A DNA stretch of 32,395 nt, from positions 1 to 32,395 of the forward strand of contig JABXJS010000213.1 in the NCBI GenBank assembly GCA_013538855.1. The letters are read 5' to 3'. The stretch comes from Herpetosiphonaceae bacterium. GTDB lineage: Bacteria; Chloroflexota; Chloroflexia; Chloroflexales; Herpetosiphonaceae. The notes beneath the pieces were generated by a model, which saw only the letters and a list, made by a program, of their open reading frames with translations, made no database searches and had not been told where the DNA came from. Within the stretch, counting starts at the first letter, position 1. Each line of letters begins with the position of its first letter. This document shows, piece by piece, positions 25,500 to 27,917 of this stretch. Position numbers and translations under genes: made by a program.

Positions 25500-26357
25500 A
25501 TGAACAAAATTCGCTTTGATCGAATCTTACCGCTCACCAGCCTCGTGGCGCTGGGCTTGATGGTTGTCTTTCTGCTTGAGTCCAACCCCGAAAATCCCCT
25601 CGTCGCGCGCATCAGCAACGACCTGCCGGTGATCTCGGTGGCCTGGCTGATCATCGCCGTCCTGATTGTGGTGATCAGCACTGGGGCCGATCTCTTCGCC
25701 CGCAGCCATCCACAGCTGGAGCATAGCACGCTGCTGCGCCTGCCTGGGCGGCTGCGCAATATCGAGATAGCGCCGCTGTTCTGGATTTTGCCCTCGCTGG
25801 CGGTGGTAGCAGCATTTGCCTTCTTCCGCCTCTTCCGCGACACCTTGCAGGGCGGTGCATTCGTGCTGGTGCTGCTGACCAGCGGTGTTTTGCTCACCGG
25901 CACCCTGGTGGCTCAGCACTACGATCTGGACCGCGATCCAGCAGTGCGCGAGAAAGCGCGCATCGGCCTGCAAGCGGTTGCCTATCTCGTCGCGTTTGGG
26001 CTGTTCAGCGCAATCCTACATACGCGCTACCGTGCGCTGATCACAGCCGTGCTGATCGTCTGCACCAGCGTGCCGCTCGCCTATCGCCTGCTCGCACGCT
26101 CGGTCAACGATCACCGCTGGCCGCTCACGATCGCCTTGGGCGTGGTCGGCGCGATCTTGGCCGAGGCCAGCGTTATTTTGACCTACTGGCCAGCAACGTT
26201 TTTGGTTGGCGGCACGCTGCTGCTCGCACTGTTTTATGTGCTGGTCAGTACGCTGCAACACGCCGAGGCGGGCACATTGACGGTGCGCGTCGGCTGGGAG
26301 CTGGCGGGGCTAGGCACGCTGGTGCTCGGTGTTTTAGCGGTAACAACGTTATGGTAA
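25500..26357 (+). CDS. Polytopic membrane protein of unknown function
   Basis: This 285-aa protein has about eight hydrophobic segments. They include ILPLTSLVALGLMVVFLL at the start, SVAWLIIAVLIVVIS, IAPLFWILPSLAVVAAFAFF, GAFVLVLLTSGVLLTGTLVA, LQAVAYLVAFGLFSAIL, ITAVLIVCTSVPLAYRLL, WPLTIALGVVGAILAEASVI and a final ELAGLGTLVLGVLAVTTL. I do not recognise the family; no charged residues typical of a transporter channel stand out. The gene lies 5 bases after the LCP stop, and its stop overlaps the tsaC start by 7 bases, so all three are read from one transcript. The ribosome binding site is weak (ACAGAG), again suggesting coupling. Confidence 0.8.
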   Translation: MNKIRFDRILPLTSLVALGLMVVFLLESNPENPLVARISNDLPVISVAWLIIAVLIVVISTGADLFARSHPQLEHSTLLRLPGRLRNIEIAPLFWILPSLAVVAAFAFFRLFRDTLQGGAFVLVLLTSGVLLTGTLVAQHYDLDRDPAVREKARIGLQAVAYLVAFGLFSAILHTRYRALITAVLIVCTSVPLAYRLLARSVNDHRWPLTIALGVVGAILAEASVILTYWPATFLVGGTLLLALFYVLVSTLQHAEAGTLTVRVGWELAGLGTLVLGVLAVTTLW

Positions 26358-26986
26358 CACGCACGGTTCTTTTTGATGCTACCGGCACACTGATCGCGCT
26401 AGACTACCTGCGATCTGGGGCGGTGATCGCATTTCCAACCGACACGGTCTATGGGCTAGGCTGCAATGTGTGGGATGGCCAGGCAGTGGCGTCTGTCTAT
26501 ACGGTCAAGGAGCGGCCGATGACCATGCCGCTGCCGGTGCTGCTCGCGACGCCAAGCGATCTAGAGCACGTTGTCACCGAGGTGTCGCCGCTGGCCTCCG
26601 CCATCGCAGAGCGCGCGTGGCCCGGCGCGCTCACGCTTGTGCTGCCAGCGCGGCCAAGCCTGCCGCCAGAGCTGCTGCTCGGCGGATCGACCATCGCCGT
26701 GCGCGTGCCAGACCACGATCAGCTGCGCCAGCTGATCCACGCCCACGGCCCCATCGCGGGCACCAGCGCCAACCGCCACAAGCAGCCAGCGCCAACCAAC
26801 GCCGCCAGCGTGCATCTACAGCTCAAGGGGCGTATTCCGCTGATCCTCGATGGCGGCCCTTCCGGCGCTGAGCTGGCCTCAACAATCATCGACCTGACGA
26901 CCGCGCAGCCCCGGCTGATTCGCGCCGGAGCCTTCGATCTGGCCACGATCAGCGATCTCGTGCCCACGCTGGCCGCCGAGGGTTAG
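26351..26986 (+). CDS. tsaC: L-threonylcarbamoyladenylate synthase (TsaC/YrdC family)
   Basis: The enzyme makes threonylcarbamoyl-AMP from Thr, bicarbonate and ATP for the t6A37 modification of ANN-decoding tRNAs. The 211-aa protein is the short TsaC type, without the Sua5 C-terminal domain. The signature PTDTVYGLG is at 29-37, K53 and R55 occur in VKERP, and GTSAN (137-141) forms the active-site lid region with S139 and N141. TsaD, TsaB and TsaE are not in the window. The ATG overlaps the end of the upstream membrane-protein gene (ATGGTAA). The stop overlaps by two bases the stop of the convergent gene at 26983, leaving no room for a separate terminator. Confidence 0.94.
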   Translation: MVTRTVLFDATGTLIALDYLRSGAVIAFPTDTVYGLGCNVWDGQAVASVYTVKERPMTMPLPVLLATPSDLEHVVTEVSPLASAIAERAWPGALTLVLPARPSLPPELLLGGSTIAVRVPDHDQLRQLIHAHGPIAGTSANRHKQPAPTNAASVHLQLKGRIPLILDGGPSGAELASTIIDLTTAQPRLIRAGAFDLATISDLVPTLAAEG

Positions 26987-27726
26987 ACCGTCAGCAGCAG
27001 CACCGTGTACAGCACAGCGCCAATCAAAAACGCCGAAAAGCGGCTCGCCCGCTCCTCGGGCAGCTCTTCTTTGAGCACATTCAGGATCACGCCGCCAGCC
27101 AGCAGCGCCAGCAGCACAGCGATGGCCGTCTTGGATAGCTCGGTGAGCGCACCAACACTCCAGCCCAGCAGCACCGCCAGCGCCAAAAGCCAGCGCCCAA
27201 TCCGGCTGTACATCGATTTATGGTGCTCGTGCAGACCGAAGTCGTTGACAAGAAAGTGCAGGCCCATGGCCAGCCCAAACAGCAGCAGCGACTGTGTGGT
27301 TGACTGCTCGCGATGCAGCAGCAAGTAGCCGATCAGCAGGTTGTACATTCCAAACGAGATAATGTGAATCCAGAACACCCCTGGCGAGGTGGCAGCCTCG
27401 GCGCGGTCGGCGGAGGACGCGGCGGCCTGCTGCTCGCGCGAGCGCTTGGCAAGGCGCTCCAATCCATAAAAAACCACCAGGCTTAGCAGCGCCAGAATAT
27501 ACACGTGGTGCTCGAAAAAGCGCAGCGGCTCAGCTGTCGACTCTGCTAAAACCGCCTGGCCGGCACTAAGCTCAGGCAGCAGATGCAGAAACACATAGGC
27601 CACCGAGGCACCGCCCGCCAGCGAAAGCCAGCGGCTGCGCGGAATATAGCGAATCATGTGCAGCTGCTGGGCAAACACATGGATGAGCGCCAGCGCCAGC
27701 GCAATCATCAAAGCAATCCACTGCAT
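26983..27726 (-). CDS. ZIP-like polytopic membrane protein
   Basis: This 247-aa membrane protein has about eight segments. Several polar motifs resemble ZIP metal transporters: GGASVAYVFLHLLPELS in an early helix, HFLVNDFGLHEHH (residues about 160-172), and LLAGGVILNVLKEELPEE near the C-terminus. In ZIP proteins, His/Asp/Glu residues in transmembrane helices IV and V bind Zn or other divalent metals. The match is by motif shape only and a specific substrate cannot be named. A His-poor, Ala/Ser-rich loop (QQAAASSADRAEAATS) divides the protein. The ATG has GGAG 5 bases upstream. It is convergent with tsaC, with overlapping stop codons. Homologues of this shape are often annotated only as membrane proteins. 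Confidence 0.7.
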   Translation of the reverse strand: MQWIALMIALALALIHVFAQQLHMIRYIPRSRWLSLAGGASVAYVFLHLLPELSAGQAVLAESTAEPLRFFEHHVYILALLSLVVFYGLERLAKRSREQQAAASSADRAEAATSPGVFWIHIISFGMYNLLIGYLLLHREQSTTQSLLLFGLAMGLHFLVNDFGLHEHHKSMYSRIGRWLLALAVLLGWSVGALTELSKTAIAVLLALLAGGVILNVLKEELPEERASRFSAFLIGAVLYTVLLLTV

Positions 27727-27838
27727 AGAAACTCCAAAGCTAGAGGCTATCTACGAGCAGTGGCTAGCAGGAACAGTGCCAAATATCCGTCTGCTGGCCC
27801 ATCAGCAGCGGCTGCGACGATGATACACTGAAGCCAAT

Positions 27839-27917
27839 GGGGGCGGCAGAGGCGGCGGAGCACTTAAAGCCAACGTGCCGTGCTTCGTCTCGGGTGCAAG
27901 TCCCGACGCCTCCACCA
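27839..27917 (+). ncRNA. tRNA-like sequence with CCA end and G3-U70-type pair; possible tRNA pseudogene or unusual tRNA
   Basis: The 79-base segment has a 7-bp acceptor stem: GGGGGCG (27839-27845) pairs with CGCCTCC (27907-27913), with G-U at the third pair, the alanine identity element. It ends ACCA. A perfect 5-bp T stem is formed by TCGGG (27890-27894) and CCCGA (27902-27906), around the loop TGCAAGT, in which G replaces the usual second T. The centre does not fold into normal D and anticodon arms; the best pairing I see is AGCAC (27859-27863) with GTGCT (27880-27884). It may be a decayed tRNA-Ala, a tmRNA-like relic or a functional tRNA-like RNA. TACACT (27824-27829) could be a -10 about 10 bases upstream, without a -35. 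Confidence 0.4.

Follow-up and report, generated by a model that had tools for sequence, protein, structure and literature searches.

Positions 27,839 to 27,917 of the window, the 32,395-nt stretch of a 6.3-Mb Herpetosiphonaceae draft genome analysed here, contain a conserved gene for a small tRNA-like RNA whose fold is supported by covariation, whose acceptor stem is that of tRNA-Ala, and from which the parts needed for decoding are absent. The sequence is best read as a tRNA mimic that would pass alanine on to, or regulate, something beyond normal decoding. With modest confidence, we interpret it as a non-decoding tRNA mimic of the Herpetosiphonaceae that is presumably charged with alanine, and whose partner would use this alanine outside normal decoding. 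A more specific version, in which an independent alanyl-RNA, distinct from both tRNA and tmRNA, serves the family as a dedicated alanine carrier or as a rescue RNA without mRNA, is put forward only tentatively. We file the RNA as a lineage-restricted, previously undescribed form of non-decoding tRNA-like RNA, built like the tRNA-like domain of tmRNA; no paper naming Herpetosiphon together with "tRNA-like" was found in the literature. Cellular genomes rarely encode aminoacylatable RNAs other than tRNA and tmRNA. If the reading is correct, a perfect alanine acceptor without decoding parts would point either to an undescribed use of alanyl-RNA or to the limit to which a tRNA can be stripped while remaining useful.

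Consistent with the original prediction, the 7-bp acceptor (GGGGGCG/CGCCTCC) with its G3-U70 pair, A73 and the following CCA are all present, as are the perfect T stem (TCGGG/CCCGA) and its loop TGCAAGT (Table 1). The further claim that the middle does not make a cloverleaf stands in so far as normal D and anticodon arms are missing. The region is not shapeless, however, as it forms a 9-bp stem with an 18-nt loop and an adjoining 2-bp D-like remnant. Homologous copies are 79-80 nt long, with an apical loop of 18-19 nt, an acceptor consensus of GGGGGCG/CGYCUCC and the T loop UGCAAGY throughout, in which G takes the place of U55. Compared with the tRNA family (RF00005), the RNA has the 7-bp acceptor, the discriminator, CCA, the 5-bp T stem and the 7-nt loop. 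Instead of a 7-nt anticodon loop on a 5-bp stem, it carries the covariation-supported 9-bp stem with its 18-19-nt loop; instead of a 3-4-bp D stem, it has at most 2 bp within an 8-nt segment; and a variable loop is likewise absent.

Table 1 Features of the tRNA-like RNA gene and its surroundings (window positions unless stated otherwise)
Feature	Position	Strand	Basis
Sua5/YrdC (t6A synthesis) gene	26351..26986	+	Pfam PF01300, E=8e-53; tblastn synteny
Extra gene between Sua5/YrdC and the RNA in the window	26983-27726	-	
Extended -10 promoter element (probable), TGATACACT, 9 nt upstream of mature 5' end	27821..27829	+	Predicted from sequence
Conserved U at -1	27838..27838	+	T invariant in all copies; paired with A73 by RNAalifold
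tRNA-like RNA gene, 79 nt	27839..27917	+	Homologues in three genera; covariation
Acceptor stem, 5' strand GGGGGCG	27839..27845	+	Invariant in 8/8 copies; equals own tRNA-Ala(GGC)
D-arm remnant GCAKAGGC, at most 2 bp (GC/GC)	27846..27853	+	RNAalifold
Central (P2) stem, 5' strand	27854..27862	+	Compensatory changes in 7/9 pairs
Apical loop CTTAAAGCCAACGTGCCG, core AAAGCCARCGYGCC near invariant	27863..27880	+	Alignment of window, Herpetosiphon and third-genus copies
Central (P2) stem, 3' strand	27881..27889	+	Covariation
T arm TCGGG-TGCAAGT-CCCGA	27890..27906	+	3/5 pairs compensatory; loop conserved
Acceptor 3' strand CGCCTCC, discriminator A73, encoded CCA	27907..27917	+	G3.U70, A73 and CCA invariant
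Herpetosiphon copy	H. aurantiacus 114-95T chromosome, 6,179,690-6,179,771		

Genes of this type are overlooked by tRNA finders and by Rfam. ARAGORN reported neither a tRNA nor a tmRNA at this position, Rfam gave no match at gathering score, and the RNA is not among the 43 RF00005 matches of its own genome. At relaxed Rfam thresholds, only weak matches to tmRNA (10.2 bits) and to the Twister-sister ribozyme (15.6 bits) appeared. The covariance search with tRNA and tmRNA models that the original prediction had proposed gave no match for tRNA and a weak, partial one for tmRNA (E=0.035, gathering score 47 bits). The Twister-sister candidate (RF02681) was rejected: its score lies below the gathering value of 34, the downstream part of the match falls in the non-conserved flank, and two homologous copies (L017 and L064) gave no match at E<=1. 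A short coding gene was likewise dismissed, as the frame ATG GGG GCG GCA is open in the window and the following codon is a TAG stop in Herpetosiphon. Folding of single sequences yielded z values of -1.7 to -2.0, which alone would not reveal a structured RNA.

A nucleotide search of the neighbourhood that took in 60 relatives matched positions 27,836 to 27,917 in each of the six genomes from the sister genus Herpetosiphon, including H. aurantiacus 114-95T, at 79-82% identity. In five of the six, the matches end at or beside the ends of the tRNA-like unit, and the flanks, aligned outward from the RNA ends without gaps, share 12-30% identity, which is no better than unrelated DNA. A covariance model (R1) built from seven sequences, those of the window and the six Herpetosiphon genomes, then recovered a copy in a third genus (G003) that had been left out of the model (E=2.4e-12); the remaining matches within the family were tRNA-Ala genes. 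Considering that the 82-mer recurs at 81-82% identity in six sister-genus genomes between unalignable flanks and again in a third genus, its conservation is far beyond chance. Each of the eight genomes, from three genera, carries a single copy. No copy was found in a fourth genus (G001), whose genome is 75% complete, and two samples, each of about 390 further Chloroflexota genomes, yielded nothing comparable under stricter filters. Among the Chloroflexota sampled, the RNA was found in one family only. Phages and plasmids gave no match, nor did a pattern search of viral contigs. Since the culturable type strain H. aurantiacus 114-95T carries the RNA, its properties can be tested directly.

The same comparison bears on structure, for the original prediction had suggested searching for the 79-mer in related genomes and asking whether its stems covary. 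They do: double compensatory changes occur in 10 of the 21 base pairs, a count reached by none of 500 shuffles, in an alignment (A2) of four distinct sequences from three independent lineages from which the structure was itself partly derived. The proposed fold has standard pairs in 94% of the cells of this alignment, and the compensatory pairs fall to 0-2 when partners are slid against each other. The changes lie in the central arm (seven pairs) and the T stem (three pairs). The acceptor is invariant except for G5-C68, which becomes G-U, and the two pairs of the D remnant lack covariation support because both are invariant. Left unaided, RNAalifold returned the three main helices of this fold together with the 2-bp D remnant. 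The third-genus copy is the strongest part of the structural evidence, as it came from a model built without it; the sequence of its central arm is largely different and the pairing is kept, with one A.C mismatch. A pseudoknot between the D segment and the loop, seen in the minimum-energy fold of Herpetosiphon, was rejected, as its positions are almost all invariant and, with the 9-bp P2 also formed, the linkers seem too short.

The window and Herpetosiphon copies differ at 14 of 42 stem positions and at only 3 of 37 unpaired or loop positions, which is the opposite of the pattern expected from a decaying gene. The RNA is under selection as a structure. The suggestion that it might be a tRNA in decay is refuted by the compensated stem changes across three genera and the near-invariant loops. 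Relatives do not lack the stems or show a full tRNA-Ala at the locus, as the refuting scenario of the prediction envisaged; the stems are kept, and the Herpetosiphon copies occupy the equivalent position after sua5.

In the window and in Herpetosiphon alike, Sua5/YrdC is the last syntenic gene before the RNA, and the order LytR-CpsA-Psr, DUF5656, Sua5/YrdC, RNA is common to both. The third genus differs from the others: there, rpsB-tsf follows the RNA at a distance of about 220 nt in the same orientation. None of the adjacent genes recurs as a partner in all three genera and, lacking a constant neighbour, the RNA is apparently a gene in its own right. A DoxX gene neighbours it in the window. 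In five Herpetosiphon loci (L013, L015, L016, L018 and L019), the stretch separating sua5 from the RNA contains an inverted repeat (CTCAGCCCTTG...CAAGGGCTGAG type) that may be the terminator of sua5. A simple promoter scan that required a -35 hexamer found no promoter. At 11 nt before the RNA, TGCTANAAT occurs in each of the six Herpetosiphon copies, in flanks that are otherwise unalignable, and the third-genus copy has GATAAT about 15 nt upstream.

The acceptor GGGGGCG...CGCCTCCACCA is identical to that of the genome's own tRNA-Ala(GGC). Bacterial alanine identity comprises A73, G2-C71, G3.U70 and G4-C69 together with G20, and no anticodon elements (PMC9976931); minihelices can be loaded with alanine, as cited there (reference 110 in PMC9976931). 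The acceptor part of this set (G3.U70, G2-C71, G4-C69 and A73) is present and invariant in all copies, with G3.U70 in eight of eight. Given the identity of the acceptor with tRNA-Ala(GGC), the lack of anticodon elements among the AlaRS determinants and the loading of minihelices, alanylation is the likeliest chemistry. The RNA is probably alanylated, and its conservation fits selection for charging. Counting against this, G20 has no clear equivalent in the RNA, and the change of U55 to G together with the 8-nt D remnant could disturb the tRNA elbow.

In the scheme we propose, the RNA would be transcribed from its own extended -10 promoter and trimmed before G1 by RNase P, with probable cleavage 3' of U(-1), and the mature 3' end would be the encoded CCA. 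AlaRS would charge it with alanine through the acceptor shared with tRNA-Ala, using G3.U70 and A73. Without an anticodon loop, the charged mimic should be unable to decode. A dedicated partner may bind it through the invariant loop of the central arm and the T/D elbow, the conserved apical loop probably being the docking site, and could use the alanine for a purpose other than normal decoding, such as non-ribosomal transfer or SmpB-like ribosome rescue. The restriction of the RNA to one family, with no copy in the fourth genus, and the lack of a neighbouring gene common to the three genera count against this scheme.

A near-invariant apical loop would, however, equally suit a regulator that pairs with RNA or binds protein and keeps the acceptor solely for stability. 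On this account, the acceptor and T arm of a small RNA in a tRNA coat would serve processing and stability, the loop would pair with mRNAs or sequester a protein, and charging would be irrelevant. The conservation of the loop, which nearly matches that of the acceptor, favours such a role, as does the precedent of the pseudo-tRNA tRNAOther of B. cereus, which is poorly aminoacylated, off polysomes and regulatory (PMC3399842). We consider it unlikely, since it leaves unexplained why the acceptor of tRNA-Ala, with its G3.U70 wobble and A73, has remained nearly constant while both other helices vary. More doubtful still is a minimal rescue RNA of the tmRNA kind, in which the tRNA-like domain alone would enter stalled ribosomes with SmpB and add alanine without an mRNA-like part. 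The layout agrees with the tRNA-like domain of tmRNA (SsrA), which likewise has an Ala-type G3.U70 acceptor, A73, an encoded CCA, a T arm, a D segment without a proper stem and, in place of an anticodon arm, a long P2 without anticodon; a fragment of that domain together with SmpB yields polyalanine in vitro without template mRNA (PMC3929946). The partial Rfam match of the window copy also favours a tmRNA-like RNA, but it scores far under the tmRNA gathering value, and the Herpetosiphon and third-genus copies have no tmRNA match at E<=1. Two elements that the genome's own tmRNA keeps, the conserved D-loop sequence (GGTTTCGAC) and the GGAC before the T stem, are absent. That tmRNA is normal (tag GKTNFRAPVALAA, RF00023 score 183.5), whereas the RNA coexisting with it has 79-80 nt and neither mRNA-like part, pseudoknots, tag frame nor GGUUUCGAC D loop. 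In line with the original prediction, which saw no tag reading frame, apparent frames are not conserved between genera: GCC AAC GYG CCA TGA is closed by its stop in Herpetosiphon only, and the window and third-genus copies have no in-frame stop within the RNA. Derivation as a tmRNA remnant was rejected, as the middle of the window copy resembled its own tmRNA (p=0.013) but those of the Herpetosiphon and third-genus copies did not (p 0.44-0.98).

That the RNA is a degenerate copy of tRNA-Ala or tmRNA, such as an integration scar, would agree with its being missed by ARAGORN and scored below Rfam thresholds and with the tRNA-Ala-like T arm and acceptor. It is highly improbable and in our view already refuted by covariation, with two covarying helices and near-constant loops in three genera and with syntenic window and Herpetosiphon copies. 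Equally hard to sustain is an unusual decoding tRNA-Leu(YAA), in which the central arm would hold a CTTAAA-G anticodon loop with an 11-nt insert after position 37. The loop of the window and Herpetosiphon copies can be written as (C/G)TTAAA, 11 nt and (G/A) on a stem, but the third genus has TGCAAA, with G for U33 and a loop that would be 8 nt. Moreover, both genomes examined have normal tRNA-Leu(UAA) and (CAA), the D stem and class II variable arm are absent, the acceptor is of the Ala type, and the similarity of the middle to the genome's own tRNAs does not exceed chance; a local alignment of the 5' part that might have indicated derivation from tRNA-Leu was not significant. To our knowledge, no bacterial enzyme splices tRNAs at 37/38, which also counts against this reading. 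A replacement for a missing tRNA was considered as well, because tRNA-Ala(UGC), tRNA-Ile(GAT) and tRNA-Lys(UUU) are not among the 43 tRNAs detected in the draft. All three are present in H. aurantiacus, whose complete genome has Ala(UGC) and Ile(GAT) side by side, and the absence of these two from the draft likely reflects a gap in the assembly, probably where an rRNA operon lies. The tRNAs of H. aurantiacus cover all 20 amino acids and include three for alanine (GGC, CGC and UGC); with this full set and a normal tmRNA, the RNA fills no decoding gap.

The non-decoding alanine mimic that we favour has partial parallels elsewhere. It shares with bacterial tRNA-Ala the 7-bp acceptor, identical to that of its own tRNA-Ala(GGC), A73, the encoded CCA, the 5-bp T stem and the 7-nt loop, and differs in lacking a D stem, a 7-nt anticodon loop and a variable loop and in having the 9-bp central arm with its 18-19-nt loop and G55 for U55. 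Precedents for charged RNAs that are diverted from translation or used unusually in it include tmRNA (PMC3929946) and the cell-wall-bridge tRNA-Gly of S. aureus (PMC4052509). The latter are charged tRNAs thought to be kept from translation and have altered elbow positions; they carry glycine rather than alanine and are ordinary isoacceptors with an anticodon (reviewed in PMC4052509). By description, B. cereus tRNAOther is likewise a tRNA-like gene outside translation, but its anticodon is that of tRNA-Trp and it forms part of longer RNAs (PMC3399842). D-armless mitochondrial tRNAs also have a short segment in place of the D arm, although they retain the anticodon loop and decode (reviewed in PMC7609411).

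A viral contig (L177:2065-2135, - strand) holds a 71-nt sequence with an Ala-type acceptor, an intact T arm and no cloverleaf middle, which ARAGORN misses. ARAGORN also misses two D-armless tRNA-like sequences in another Chloroflexota family, at L065:1501-1574 (- strand, genome G246) and L076:1501-1576 (+ strand, genome G177), in which the same Ala-type acceptor and normal T loops accompany a central arm that varies. Directly downstream of each is a gene that we read from its ORF as an IS1-like transposase, and the homology between the two loci starts about 24 nt before the RNA and extends through the transposase. The two Chloroflexota sequences, a looser form of D-armless Ala-acceptor RNA, are a hint that alanine carriers of this kind might have evolved repeatedly.
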